Of a stretch of DNA of 39,931 nucleotides, positions 11,174 to 27,004 are shown in pieces. The notes under the pieces were generated by a model. That model did not search any database and was not told where the DNA came from. It worked only from the letters and a program-made list of their open reading frames with translations. The position numbers were made by a program, and so were the translations under genes. Numbering within the stretch: position 1 is the first letter of the stretch; each line of letters opens with the position of its first letter. Source of the stretch: an uncultured Saprospiraceae bacterium (lineage in GTDB: Bacteria > Bacteroidota > Bacteroidia > Chitinophagales > Saprospiraceae); the NCBI GenBank assembly GCA_937959375.1, contig CALGLS010000144.1, positions 1 to 39,931 on the forward strand, in the 5' to 3' direction.

Positions 11174-14100
11174 ATGGCATCAAAAGATAATTATCAGATA
11201 TTAATTGAGAAGCTAGACCGATTTACACGAAAGTTCTACATGAATCAATTGATCAGAGGAACTTTGTATAGTGTAGGCTTGATTCTAGCTGCTTTTATTT
11301 TGATGAATCTCCTAGAGCATCAATTCTTTTTTGGGAAAGGAGGTAGAAAAGCGCTATTTTTCTCATTTGTAGGTATTAGTGCCGCTGCCCTTGTTTATTG
11401 GGTTTTTATGCCACTCTTGCACTATTTCCGACTAGGAAAAGTCATTTCACATGAACGTGCTGCAGAAATTGTAGGTGAACATTTTACTGATGTAAAAGAC
11501 AAATTGCTCAATATTCTTCAGCTAAAGAAGCAAGCAGACAGCAATCCTGATGCACAACTGGTCTTTGCAGGTATCAATCAAAAAACCGCAGAAATAAATC
11601 CAGTACCATTCCGATCTGCTATAAACCTTGGACAAAACAAAAAATATCTTCGTTACGCTTTACCTCCGCTTCTTTTATTACTCATTCTTTTATTTGCTGC
11701 GCCAAGTATTATCAAAGACAGCACCAAACGTTTAATCAACAACAATACTGAATTCAAAAAAGATGCGCTCTTTTCTTTCTTAATCGAAAAAGAAGAAGAA
11801 CTAACCGTTATTCAATTTGAAGATTATTTATTGGAAGTAAAAACAGAAGGACAGGTTGTTCCGAATGAAGTTTTCATCAATATCGACAACTACCATTATC
11901 GTTTGAATAAAGAAGAGTCCGGTAACTTTACATACAAATTTAGTAACGTACAAAAGGACATGGATTTCACCGTGTTCTCTAGTGGTATAGAATCCAAAGC
12001 ATACAAACTCAATGTTTTGAAAAAGCCAAATATCCTTGGCTTTGAAGTTAAGTTAGATTACCCTGGTTACACTGGTCGACGTGACGAGACAATCTCTAAT
12101 ATTGGTGATATGGTTGTTCCACGTGGTACCAATCTTGACTGGGTTTTCAACTCTGCCAATACCGACGATATTCAAATTAGTTTTTCTGGAAAGAACACAC
12201 CAATTGCAACCAATCGATTTAGCGATGAGCTTTTTACTTACAAGAAAAAAGCAATGCGAGATGAAAACTATAAAGTATATGTTTCCAACAATGCTTTACC
12301 AAAAGCTGATTCTGTTGCTTACACTATTTCTGTTGTCCCCGATTTACATCCAACTATTGCGGTAGAAGAATTTAAAGACAGTACGGATAGTAAATTATTG
12401 TTCTTTGTTGGTGATGCTTCTGACGACTATGGCCTAATGAGTCTTTCCTTCAACTATAGATTGAAAAAGGAAAAAGGTACACAAGGTGATTTGAACACTC
12501 TAAAAATGCGCAAGCCTGATGGTCGCCAAACACAATATGATCACACTTGGGATTTAGCTGAATTGGAACTAGATCCAGGTGATGAACTCACCTACTACTT
12601 TGAAGTTTTTGATAACGATGCCATCATGGGTAGTAAATCAGCACGTACCAATGTGATGACTTTTGCAATGCCTACTATAGAAGAGATCGAAGAAAAAACA
12701 GAGAAGAACAACGAAGAAATCAAAAAAGATTTAGAAGAAGCGATAAAAGAAAACAAGAAGATTCGTGAAGATATGAAAGAACTTCGCGAGAAGATTCTTC
12801 AGGAAAAAGATATGGATTGGCAAACTCGTAAAGAATTAGAAAAGCTACTCGAACGTCAAAAGGAAATGGAGCAGCAAATGCAAGAGGCTAAAGAAAAGTT
12901 TGAGGAGAACATGAAAAATCAAGAGGAGTTTGAAAAACCAAGTGAAGAATTGTTAGAGAAGCAAGAAAAAGTTCAAGAACTCTTTGAAGAAGTAATGGAT
13001 GATGAAATGAAAGAACTTATGAAGCAAATAGAAGAATTGCTACAAGAGTTAGAGAAAGACGAGGCGCTGGAGAAAATGGAAGAAATGGAAATTAGTGATG
13101 AAGAAATGGAAATGGAGATGGATCGTATGCTCGAACTACTCAAGCAACTTGAAGTCGAAGCTGAAATGGAAAAGGCAATTGAAAAGTTAGAAGAGTTAGC
13201 TGAAAAGCAAGAAGAACTTAGTGAAGAAACTGAAAAAGAAGAAAAGCCACAAGATCAGTTAGAGAAAGAACAAGAAGAAATCAACGAGGAGTTTAAGAAA
13301 ATTCAAGAAGATATTGAAGAGGCCAAAAAGAAGAATGAAGAATTAGAACGTCCTAACGATCTTGGTGACCAAGAAGAAGAAATGGAAGACATTGAAGAAG
13401 ACCTTGAGGAAAGTCAAGACCAATTAGAAAAACAAGACAATCAAAAAGCTTCTGATGCTCAAAAGAAAGCTTCTGAAAAAATGAAGGAGATGGCTGCTGG
13501 TATGCAACAGCAAATGCAGTCTGGTCAGCAGGAGCAAATGGAAGAGGATATGGAAGCGCTACGCCAACTTCTAGAAAACCTGCTCGGTATGTCGTTTGAT
13601 CAAGAACAACTAATTGATGACATAGGAGAATCAGAAATCAACACACCTCGATATGTCGATCTCGTTCAAGGTCAATACAAATTGAAAGATGACTTTAAAT
13701 TAATTGAAGATAGTTTACAAGCTTTGAGCAAACGTGTTTTCCAAATCGAATCTTTCGTTACTGAAAAAGTAACTGATATAAAATCTAATATGAAAGATGG
13801 ATTAAAAGAATTGGAAGAGCGTCACAAACCTCAAGCTGCAACGCATCAGCAATACACCATGAAAAATGTGAATGATCTGGCACTAATGTTAAGTGAAGTC
13901 ATGAATCAAATGCAACAACAAATGTCTAGCATGATGCAGGGTTCACAGATGTGTAACAAACCCGGAGGAAGTGGTGGCAAGAAACCTGGCAAGAAACCCG
14001 GCGATAAAATGAGTAAAGGCCAAGGTGAGCTCAACAAAGACATGAAGGAAATGATGGAAGGGCTCAAAAAAGGTCAGGGTGGTACAAGTAAGCAATTTGC

Positions 14101-19181: not shown

Positions 19182-20513
19182 ATGAAACTCTACAGTACAA
19201 ATAATACCGAGGTTCTTTTTTCTTTAAAGGAAGCTGTCCTCAAAGGTTTACCTGATGACAATGGTTTGTTTATTCCTCAGACCATTACTCCCCTTCCTAC
19301 TTCTTTTTTTGAGTCTATTGAACAATTAAGTTTTCCAGAGCTTTCTTTTGAAGTTGCGAAAGCTATCATTGGTGATGTTATTCCAGAGCATGACCTAAAA
19401 GAGATTGTATTTGATGCCATTAACTTTGACGCTCCTGTTATTCCTTTAGATAATGATTGCGCTGTATTAGAGTTGTTTCATGGGCCTACCCTTGCGTTTA
19501 AGGACTTTGGAGCGCGTTTCATGTCTCGCTTGATGTCTTACTTCAATAAGGCTGAAAGTAAAGAGCTAGTAATCCTTGTGGCTACCTCTGGTGATACTGG
19601 AGGAGCTGTTGCTTCTGGTTTTTATAAGACGCCTGGAATTAAAGTAGTTATTCTCTATCCTTCTGGTCGAGTTAGTCCTTTGCAGGAAAAACAACTTACA
19701 ACATTAGGACATAATATTTCTGCTATTGAAGTAGATGGTTCTTTTGATGATTGCCAAGCGATGGTTAAATCCGCTTTCCTTGACAAAGATCTAAACCGAG
19801 TTATTCGCTTATCTTCTGCTAACTCTATTAATATAGCTCGTTTAATACCTCAATCATTCTATTACTTTGAAGCTTACAAGCAATTGAAAGATAAGTCCCG
19901 TCCTTTAGTCTTTTCTATTCCTAGTGGAAATTTTGGAAATCTTACTGCTGGGCTTTTAGCCAAACGGTTAGGTCTTCCTGTAGATCATTTCATTGCTGCA
20001 ACTAATGCAAACGACATCGTTCCACAGTTTTTAGCTTCAGGCGAATACAATCCTAAAGCTTCAGTAGCTACTATTTCAAATGCTATGGATGTAGGAAATC
20101 CTTCGAACTTTTATAGAATGCTTTCACTTTATATGGATAAAGTAACTCCTGTACAAGTGGAACGTTCCACGTGGAACAATATGAAACAAGATATCAGTGG
20201 TTATGCTTATTCTGATGAAACTACGCGTAAAGCTATTCAAGAAATAAAGGAAAAGTATGATTATGTAATGGATCCACACGGAGCAGTAGGTTATCTTGCT
20301 CTAAAAGAATATCAAACGATTCATCCTAATGCCACAGGAATCATTTTAGAAACAGCTCATCCATCAAAGTTTATTGATGAGGTTGAATCAACTTTAGATA
20401 TAAAAGTCGATATCCCTGAAAGGCTTGCAAAACTTGCAGAGCTTCCAAAAGAGGCAACTACTATGAAAGCTCAATTTGATTTATTTAAATCTTATCTCCT
20501 TGAGAAATTCTAA
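19182..20513 (+). CDS. thrC: Threonine synthase
   Basis: 'HGPTLAFKDFGARFMSRLM', 'ATSGDTGGAVASGF', 'SIPSGNFGNLTAGLLAK'. Confidence 0.96.
   Translation: MKLYSTNNTEVLFSLKEAVLKGLPDDNGLFIPQTITPLPTSFFESIEQLSFPELSFEVAKAIIGDVIPEHDLKEIVFDAINFDAPVIPLDNDCAVLELFHGPTLAFKDFGARFMSRLMSYFNKAESKELVILVATSGDTGGAVASGFYKTPGIKVVILYPSGRVSPLQEKQLTTLGHNISAIEVDGSFDDCQAMVKSAFLDKDLNRVIRLSSANSINIARLIPQSFYYFEAYKQLKDKSRPLVFSIPSGNFGNLTAGLLAKRLGLPVDHFIAATNANDIVPQFLASGEYNPKASVATISNAMDVGNPSNFYRMLSLYMDKVTPVQVERSTWNNMKQDISGYAYSDETTRKAIQEIKEKYDYVMDPHGAVGYLALKEYQTIHPNATGIILETAHPSKFIDEVESTLDIKVDIPERLAKLAELPKEATTMKAQFDLFKSYLLEKF
20163..20178. other. Candidate parS (ParB-binding) site within thrC
   Basis: CGTTCCACGTGGAACA; 14-bp perfect palindrome GTTCCACGTGGAAC with CACGTG centre, parS-like. 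Confidence 0.7.
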
Positions 20514-20593: not shown

Positions 20594-20609
20594 CGTTTCA
20601 CGTGAAACA
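20594..20609. other. Candidate parS (ParB-binding) site, intergenic
   Basis: CGTTTCACGTGAAACA, 15/16 to TGTTTCACGTGAAACA. Confidence 0.82.
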
Positions 20610-24023: not shown

Positions 24024-25091
24024 TTAACTACTTACTTTAGGAGTCAAGTAGAGCATATATAAAGATATCATTAGTAATAACAAGGCGCCTCCTTGATGGT
24101 ATACACCGAAGTCTACCGGAATACTACCTTTACATAGCAAAACAGTAGCGATCCCTAATCCAGCTTGGATTACCAACATAGTTATCAACATATATAAACT
24201 CTTTGTGTAATTTGAAGATACTTTAGCTCTTATCCCCTTCCAGAAGAATGTCAAACCAATGATTATCAACAAATAAGCTAGACTTCTGTGAATAATTTGT
24301 ATAAGGGCAGGCATGAAAAGGTTTTTATCATACTCATAAAAGTTATTAACATTCCACATACTTGATTCACGTAAAACGGAAGGAATCACTTCTCCGTTCA
24401 TATCCGGCCAAGTAGGAAAGAACAAACCAGCCTTCATTCCTGACATAATTCCTCCAAAGAAAACTTGTACCGCTAAAACAGTAACAAAGCCCAAACTCAA
24501 CTTTCTTAACATAGAATTGTGGAAAACTTTGGGACGGGGCTTAAAAACCTTAAAAGTGGTCCAGAGGAGGTATGAAAAAAGAATAAATGCCAGACTCAAA
24601 TGAAAGCTCAATTTATAGGCATTTACCCAAGGCCGCTCAATTAAGCCACTTGCCACCATGATCCAACCAACTGAAGCAACAATTACGGCTAGTAAAATCA
24701 CAATACACAAGTCAGTTATCAACGATTTAGAGAGCTTCCCCTTGATTAAGAAGAATACAAAGGGGATCAGGAAGACAAAACCCATGGTTCGTGCCCACAA
24801 GCGATGGAAATACTCCCAGAAGTAAATGAATTTGAATTCAGACAGTGACATCCCCTTGTTGATTTGTTCATACTGCGGTGTTGCCTTGTATAAGTCAAAC
24901 TCTGAGGTCCAACCCTCTTGGCTCATCGGAGGAAGCGTACCTGTTACAATTTCCCATTTAGTAATGGAAAGTCCAGAACCAGTCAACCGAGTCACTCCTC
25001 CGATCACGACCTGGAAGAAAACCATGACAATCCCAATGATCAACCAGATCTTTACGATTTTAGAAATGCTATTTGATTCAGTAAATTTCAT
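24024..25091 (-). CDS. ctaA: COX15/CtaA family heme A synthase
   Basis: 'VVIGGVTRLTGSGLSITKWEIVTGTLPP', 'FKFIYFWEYFHRLWAR', 'GGIMSGMKAGLFFPTWPDMNG'. Confidence 0.95.
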   Translation of the reverse strand: MKFTESNSISKIVKIWLIIGIVMVFFQVVIGGVTRLTGSGLSITKWEIVTGTLPPMSQEGWTSEFDLYKATPQYEQINKGMSLSEFKFIYFWEYFHRLWARTMGFVFLIPFVFFLIKGKLSKSLITDLCIVILLAVIVASVGWIMVASGLIERPWVNAYKLSFHLSLAFILFSYLLWTTFKVFKPRPKVFHNSMLRKLSLGFVTVLAVQVFFGGIMSGMKAGLFFPTWPDMNGEVIPSVLRESSMWNVNNFYEYDKNLFMPALIQIIHRSLAYLLIIIGLTFFWKGIRAKVSSNYTKSLYMLITMLVIQAGLGIATVLLCKGSIPVDFGVYHQGGALLLLMISLYMLYLTPKVSS

Positions 25092-25876
25092 AAGTGTAGT
25101 TTCGTTTTAATTTTTACTGTGGATAACTAAGAGAAAAGTCGGAAGACCGAAGACGGAAATCCGAAGCTTCCCTCTAACGTATACTCGCGATTGTGAGAAA
25201 CCTCCGACTTTGGTCTTCGGACTTCGGTTCCTTCACTTCCGACTTCCGTCTTACCATATCCAACAACGAAACTAAAAAAAGGATTAACATCCTAAAGTAA
25301 AAAAATCAACCTTCTCTTAATCCTCTGGAGAAAAACCAGAAAAGCCTTTGTGAATAACTCAATCAATTCACTTATCCACACAACTAACTATTGGTAATTA
25401 TTAATTAATAAAAAATTTTAAAAAAAGCCTATCATCATTAGGAGTGTTAATATGGGGATAAAATAATCGACTACTTTTTGGTTTATTCACTACTAAGCTT
25501 TTATCTACAGTTACCAACACCTTATTAACATCAGTTCACGGTATAAATCAAGGATTTAGCCGTTTTTTAACAGGATGTTGATAACTCCAAGTATGGATAA
25601 GTTTTTTTATTTTTCGGATGTTGACAAGTTGGTGGGATGTAGATAACTACCCCACTTACTGACAATTTTTAGTAAAACATACGAAATGTTATATATTAAT
25701 TTTCAAAATTCTTGGTAGCTGTTAACAACTCTACTGGTTTTACACCTAGTTACTAACATCCAAAATGTAAAAATGTGGGAAACTTCAGGTTTTACAATGG
25801 TATTTTGTAACTTCAGAAAATCCTTGAAAATGAGGTTTTAACCAAACAAAGAATTACCAACACTTATCAACATATT
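25092..25876. other. Putative chromosomal replication origin (oriC): DnaA-box cluster with AT-rich tract
   Basis: TGTGGATAA 25118, TGTGAATAA 25349, TTATCCACA 25372, TTATCTACA 25501, TGTTGATAA 25576, TATGGATAA 25592, TGTAGATAA 25638, TTATCAACA 25864, plus weaker boxes; AT-rich stretch at about 25392-25427. Confidence 0.65.
25137..25256 (+). repeat. Dispersed intergenic heptad-repeat element, copy A
   Basis: Left arm CGGAAGA|CCGAAGA|CGGAAAT|CCGAAGC; core CTTCCCTCTAACGTATACTCGCGATTGTGAGAAACCTCCGAC; right arm with 7-bp-period GTCCGAA/GTCGGAA units in the opposite sense. Confidence 0.75.
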
Positions 25877-26533
25877 ATGTGCAAACGTTATTCATTCACT
25901 ACATCAAAAGAAACAATCGAAAGTCAACTCGGGTTCGAAGTTGTTGGTAATATAAGGACCAGTTTTAATATTGCTCCAATGCAATATAGCTATGTCATAA
26001 CAAACACTGAAAAGCAAAAGCTACAATATATGACTTGGGGACTGATTCCACATTGGTCAAATGATGGCGTAAATAATGGTAAGTTGATTAACGCTCGTAA
26101 AGAAGGTATTTCAGCGAGTACATCATTTAGAATACCAATTCGACGTCGCAGATGTCTAGTTTTGGCAGATAGTTATTATCAATGGCAAAAAGATGGACTA
26201 AATGAGATTCCTTACAGAATTGTTCAAGATGGAGGAAATATCATGATGATGGCTGGTATTTGGGATATTTGGGAGGAAGGAGCAAAAGAAATTAAGAGCT
26301 TTTCGATCATTACGATTCCATCCCCACCAGAGCTCAATGACATAGGTGATCGTTGCCCTTTAGTTTTGGAGACAGCTGAGTTGCAGGAGCAATGGTTAAA
26401 TGACCTAAATCTCGATCAAATTATAAAAGTGATGGGAACAAGGCCAACTAAACTAAAGCACTACCCGATATCTAAAAAAGTAAATTCTATAAAATTTAAC
26501 TCAATTGAACTCCATGAGGAGCTAGCATCCTAA
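25877..26533 (+). CDS. SOS response-associated peptidase (SRAP/YedK/HMCES family)
   Basis: Catalytic Cys2 'MCKRYSF', 'INARKEGI', 'CLVLADSYYQWQ', 'MMAGIWD'. Confidence 0.95.
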   Translation: MCKRYSFTTSKETIESQLGFEVVGNIRTSFNIAPMQYSYVITNTEKQKLQYMTWGLIPHWSNDGVNNGKLINARKEGISASTSFRIPIRRRRCLVLADSYYQWQKDGLNEIPYRIVQDGGNIMMMAGIWDIWEEGAKEIKSFSIITIPSPPELNDIGDRCPLVLETAELQEQWLNDLNLDQIIKVMGTRPTKLKHYPISKKVNSIKFNSIELHEELAS

Positions 26534-26551
26534 AAAGTATCTATATATTAT

Positions 26552-27004
26552 ATGAGAGTTGTTATTCAAAGAGCGAAAGAGGCTTCAGTTACGATTGAAG
26601 GGAAAGTAAAATCATCTATTGGCCAAGGTCTACTCATATTGTTGGGCATAGAACCAACTGACACTGTTGAAGAAATCAAATGGCTATCTAATAAAATAAC
26701 CAACCTTCGCATCTTCGATGATGAAAATAGAGTGATGAACCTATCAGTAGGTGCCATTAATGGAGGCATCATCGTTGTGAGCCAGTTTACTTTAATGGCC
26801 AGTACCAAAAAAGGAAATCGCCCATCTTACATACGAGCAGCAAAACCTGATATTGCTATACCTTTATATGAAGCCTTTGTCAAGGAATTGCATCAGACCA
26901 GTCAAATTGAAATTGGAACGGGAGAATTCGGAGCAGACATGAAAGTTGCTTTAATCAATGATGGTCCAGTTACCATAATAATAGATACCAAAAATAAAGA
27001 GTAA
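26552..27004 (+). CDS. dtd: D-aminoacyl-tRNA deacylase
   Basis: 'MRVVIQRAKEASVTIEGK', 'VVSQFTLMASTKKGNRPSYIRAA', 'GEFGADMKVALINDGPVTIIID'. Confidence 0.97.
   Translation: MRVVIQRAKEASVTIEGKVKSSIGQGLLILLGIEPTDTVEEIKWLSNKITNLRIFDDENRVMNLSVGAINGGIIVVSQFTLMASTKKGNRPSYIRAAKPDIAIPLYEAFVKELHQTSQIEIGTGEFGADMKVALINDGPVTIIIDTKNKE

Follow-up and report, generated by a model that had tools for sequence, protein, structure and literature searches.

A very probable chromosomal replication origin, distant from dnaA, in the ctaA/SRAP gap of Saprospiraceae

The BUS of Bacillus subtilis incC is built of a DnaA box, a weaker tandem box, a short spacer, A-centred trinucleotides with GAT nearest the box, and AT-rich DNA, with more boxes nearby (PMC6669920, PMC8287927). 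As a rule for searching other genomes, it has been put as a box, a spacer of at most 16 bp that often holds a second box plus a few base pairs, and at least 3 trios of the form 3'-NAN-5', GAT being commonest in the box-proximal place (PMC8287927, PMC6669920). In Prevotella intermedia, the box cluster of oriC coincides with a skew transition and dnaA lies in another place, an arrangement that is common in Bacteroidetes (PMC4755523). The parS sites of chromosomal ParABS systems, palindromes of the form (C/T)GTT(C/T)CACGTG(A/G)AACA that lie a few kb at most from the origin, are mostly found inside the origin domain, and a C at the first base is allowed in Caulobacter (PMC7022226).

The window examined here is a whole contig of 39,931 nucleotides (C144, GenBank CALGLS010000144.1) from the draft genome of an uncultured Saprospiraceae bacterium, which is 72% complete at 4.98 Mb in 597 contigs; comparison with related CtaA proteins likewise points to this family of Bacteroidota. 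Its genes ctaA and SRAP, the latter encoding a DNA-damage protein and followed by dtd and a MazG-like gene, diverge from a 785-bp gap that is very probably the chromosomal replication origin (oriC), away from dnaA and at a position common to Saprospiraceae. That reading is supported by box clustering kept in the family, an oriented BUS-like core, adjoining parS sites, and turns of skew or strand bias that fall broadly near ctaA in 3 relatives; the boxes, core, parS sites, and conservation are read from sequence, as is a skew that in some of the relatives broadly agrees. Origins separated from dnaA have been described before in Bacteroidetes, and the Saprospiraceae gap is a new and unusually well-marked case. 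A search of papers, as distinct from DoriC with its predicted origins for sequenced genomes, found no published Saprospiraceae origin. The first-pass annotation had seen no dnaA, dnaN, or gidA in view, and the window genes that were searched include none of them; the one match to the DnaA C-terminal domain is on another contig (C106, 2.95 kb), and no dnaA lies next to the box cluster. Its caveat about gene strands is also correct locally, in that the window's genes are not oriented as an origin there would lead one to expect. The features are collected in the table.

Features of the putative origin region and its surroundings, in window positions
Feature	Positions	Strand	Basis
Putative oriC region: all of the gap from which ctaA and SRAP diverge	25092-25876		Box excess; gap kept in family
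Conserved core (BUS-like): AT-rich tract, DnaA-trio-like repeats, 2 abutting DnaA boxes	25414-25464	+	51 bp, profile match
AT-rich tract, probable DNA unwinding element (DUE)	25391-25426	+	Read directly; AT-rich flank kept with core in relatives
DnaA-trio-like repeat TAT CAT CAT TAG (read 3'-GAT-TAC-TAC-TAT-5')	25430-25441	+	Fits 3'-NAN-5' rule, GAT next to box
Weak second core DnaA box TATTAACAC	25444-25452	-	Position conserved
Main core DnaA box TTATCCCCA	25453-25461	-	1 mismatch to TTATCCACA
DnaA box TTATCCACA, exact	25118-25126	-	Motif scan
DnaA box TTATTCACA	25349-25357	-	Motif scan
DnaA box TTATCCACA, exact	25372-25380	+	Motif scan
DnaA box TTATCTACA, 1 mismatch	25501-25509	+	Motif scan
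DnaA box TTATCAACA, 1 mismatch	25576-25584	-	Motif scan
DnaA box TTATCCATA, 1 mismatch	25592-25600	-	Motif scan
DnaA box TTATCTACA, 1 mismatch	25638-25646	-	Motif scan
DnaA box TTATCAACA, 1 mismatch	25864-25872	+	Motif scan
parS CGTTCCACGTGGAACA, inside threonine synthase gene	20163-20178		Near-perfect palindrome
parS CGTTTCACGTGAAACA, intergenic	20594-20609		Near-perfect palindrome
ctaA (COX15/CtaA family), borders the gap; synteny marker	24024-25091	-	Pfam PF02628, E = 3e-89
SRAP (YedK/HMCES-type), borders the gap; synteny marker	25877-26533	+	Pfam PF02586, E = 2e-55
dtd, next gene; gap border in relatives where SRAP was not found	26552-27004	+	Pfam PF02580

The gap contains 9 boxes within 1 mismatch of TTATCCACA, where 400 shuffles of the same gap average 0.22 and never exceed 3; the rest of the window's intergenic DNA, 3.1 kb, has 4 such boxes. 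Eight of the 9 had been listed in the first-pass annotation and all are recovered at the same positions and strands; it had called their clustering striking, and the shuffles bear this out. The ninth, TTATCCCCA at 25453(-), was absent from that list and proves to be the core's main box. Across the 4.98-Mb genome the exact 9-mer has 58 copies, a count that does not exceed that of its reversed control, so it is the clustering that is the signal and not the 9-mer itself. Between the box at 25118 and the core there is a palindromic element of about 120 bp (25136-25256, GTCGGAAG...CTTCCGAC) with dozens of matches of roughly 70-89% identity across the genome. Such copies suggest a repeat of MITE or REP type that has invaded the putative oriC, and it may be why the core is farther from ctaA than in most relatives.

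The order ctaA-gap-SRAP/dtd recurs across Saprospiraceae, and boxes and core are kept with it, which answers a check on gap conservation that had been proposed with the first annotation. A set of 54 ctaA-SRAP (or dtd) gaps from relatives, 35 kb in all, holds 144 TTWTNCACA boxes where shuffles predict 9.1 and the rate in flanking DNA predicts 14.5, an excess over shuffles of about 16-fold, and the boxes are also kept where the neighbor is dtd and not SRAP. In some relatives the number of strict boxes in the gap is only 0-2; in the complete relative G059, the roughly 0.7 kb immediately upstream of ctaA contains 15 boxes. In the families sampled outside Saprospiraceae, box clusters are absent both from the DNA upstream of ctaA (within the order) and from that upstream of dtd (within the class). 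Neither ctaA as an order-wide origin marker nor dtd as a class-wide one was retained, the former having no clusters and the latter no upstream boxes in those families. P. intermedia likewise combines a box cluster with a distant dnaA, the cluster being there at a skew transition (PMC4755523) and in some Saprospiraceae broadly near one, whereas the Saprospiraceae address is a specific ctaA/SRAP-dtd gap, found across the family and not in the other families sampled.

Within the gap is a 51-bp core whose layout across ctaA-upstream stretches is AT-rich DNA followed by ATCATCAGggnTGTtaaTtTGTgGatAA. It recurs in one orientation in at least 73 of 79 such stretches, these 73 scoring over 12 bits; 77 of the 79 exceed the best shuffle (-11.5), although the fairer yardstick is the best reverse-complement match at 10.2 bits. 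The window core has 51.5 bits under a leave-one-out model, against -1.4 for the best of 200 shuffles. With a model from a stricter site selection, the core is unique in the window (39.6 bits versus 4.7 for the next non-overlapping match), and G059, over 905 kb, gives 34.5 bits for its gap core and 7.4 for the next match. In genome samples of G017, G019, G044, and G061, the best core match is again the ctaA gap. Five columns are invariant in the stricter-selection model, where they are forced by that selection of sites, and the same 5 are nearly invariant in the first core model, which was unforced at its final step.

Read on the minus strand, the core has TTATCCCCA, the abutting and weaker TATTAACAC, 2 bases, the trinucleotides, and then the AT tract. 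Relatives often have TGTGGATAA or TGTGGAAAA as the main core box, and near the second-box position, on the + strand, TGTTAGTTT or TGTGGATTT. In the terms of the search rule, TTATCCCCA is followed by an 11-bp spacer and then by GAT-TAC-TAC-TAT. Three consecutive NAN trios are not unusual in random sequence; it is conservation on which the argument rests. By architecture the core is BUS-like, and unwinding by DnaA through the trios is predicted. The differences from the B. subtilis BUS are that the window origin would be far from dnaA, that its inner trios are TAC and TAT and not GAT, and that its main core box is one mismatch off the consensus. The AT-rich tract next to the boxes is present where the first-pass annotation had placed it, and it overlaps the conserved core; the suggestion that this is the unwinding element is probably correct.

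Evidence for a candidate origin that is independent of the boxes comes from parS. In the whole genome GTTYCACGTGRAAC matches only 2 sites, at 20163 and 20594, both 4.5-5 kb from the gap and both with C as the first base. They have nothing unusual about them in comparison with the origin-proximal parS described for chromosomal ParABS (PMC7022226). Among 43 genomes in which both features were located, the window genome included, parS is on the ctaA contig in 31, at 0.9-33 kb with a median of 6 kb, and in 26 of these it is on the 3' side of ctaA as it is in the window; the other 12, which are draft assemblies, have it on a different contig. The exact TGTTCCACGTGGAACA is found in 8 of 14 probed genomes, and in those only near ctaA. 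A weaker parS-like site with 2 mismatches (TGTTCCACGTGGTACC) is further left in the window at 12115-12130. G059 has a second cluster 6-7 kb from its ctaA gap (C1, 2044974-2045362), with ten DnaA boxes interleaved with 2 exact parS palindromes.

The window genome being a fragmented draft, GC skew, which had been proposed as a check, was sampled by stretches in relatives. In the 4.35-Mb chromosome of G059, sampled every 50-90 kb, cumulative skew is lowest at about 1.6-2.6 Mb, and a two-state fit draws the origin to 1.35-1.83 Mb by skew and to 2.0-2.5 Mb by gene strand. With ctaA at 2.05 Mb, the skew-only interval misses it by 0.2 Mb. The terminus falls close to coordinate 0, and so does dnaA (position 1352, versus 2050754 for the proposed origin). 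In G017 the skew reaches its bottom at 290-370 kb and ctaA is at 300 kb, and G044 turns at about 1.06-1.16 Mb with ctaA at 1.22 Mb. The check finds broad agreement in G059, G017, and G044; G019 is flat and uninformative, and G061 is contrary, having positive skew on both sides of ctaA, which does not support an origin there, although core and parS are nonetheless present. The turning points are broad, and they support the region and not the exact gap.

That breadth leaves room for the gap to be a DnaA-titration or regulatory site near the origin and not the start site, in the manner of E. coli datA or of DnaA-controlled ctaA/SRAP promoters. DnaA boxes serve such roles too, skew places the origin only within hundreds of kb, and G059 has its second cluster of boxes with parS 6-7 kb away. 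We consider it unlikely all the same, because the core goes beyond boxes alone in having the order of box, spacer, trios, and AT tract that unwinding needs, because the strongest core match of every genome sampled is in the gap, and because the boxes persist where dtd and not SRAP adjoins the gap. That the boxes are a chance cluster of AT-rich 9-mers, as the unremarkable genome-wide count of the exact 9-mer might suggest, has a negligible probability: none of the 400 shuffles reaches 9 boxes, the excess is family-wide, the core is conserved, and conservation has already refuted it.

Many equally dense clusters elsewhere had been named at the outset as what would speak against an origin in the gap. 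The genome has one other tight cluster, not many, with five boxes in 132 bp beside rpsU on contig C548 (3283-3414; three exact TTATCCACA, TTTTCCACA, and TTATGCACA). In strict boxes it is denser than the window gap, but that it is the true origin is highly improbable: its best core match is -3.5 bits, no GTTYCACGTGRAAC parS site occurs on its contig, none of 29 rpsU loci in relatives has a box cluster, and both rpsU copies of G059 are far from the strand-bias turning point. As an origin candidate it was rejected for having neither conservation nor core, and with no core, no parS palindrome, and no rpsU counterpart in the relatives examined, it is probably a secondary DnaA-binding site.

Taking the ctaA/SRAP gap as oriC, we infer that DnaA and ParB bind there and at the nearby parS sites, and that unwinding and the start of forks take place at the gap. 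DnaA would occupy the scattered boxes together with the 2 abutting core boxes (25444-25461), and a DnaA filament would load from the latter onto the trio-like repeats (25430-25441) and open the AT-rich tract (25391-25426), where helicase would be loaded and 2 forks would start. ParB on the parS sites 4.5-5 kb leftward would then separate the newly copied origins. A more far-reaching proposal is that the origin module of Saprospiraceae is specific to the family, its second box being degenerate and its inner trios of TAC type, and that it keeps to one gap next to SRAP, the link to SRAP being functional, for example through co-regulation by DnaA, and not incidental; we hold this to be doubtful.

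An oriC at this gap would give a specific address for a large and mostly uncultured family, usable for peak-to-trough growth estimates from metagenomes, for oriC plasmids in genetics, and for correct orientation of assemblies, the complete relative being numbered from dnaA near its skew terminus. Comparing the cores in depth also shows which parts of a BUS-like module persist over a whole family. Box number varies among its members, and one relative, on contig G023:C349, has 27 TTWTNCACA boxes within 4 kb at ctaA, a number far above the others.
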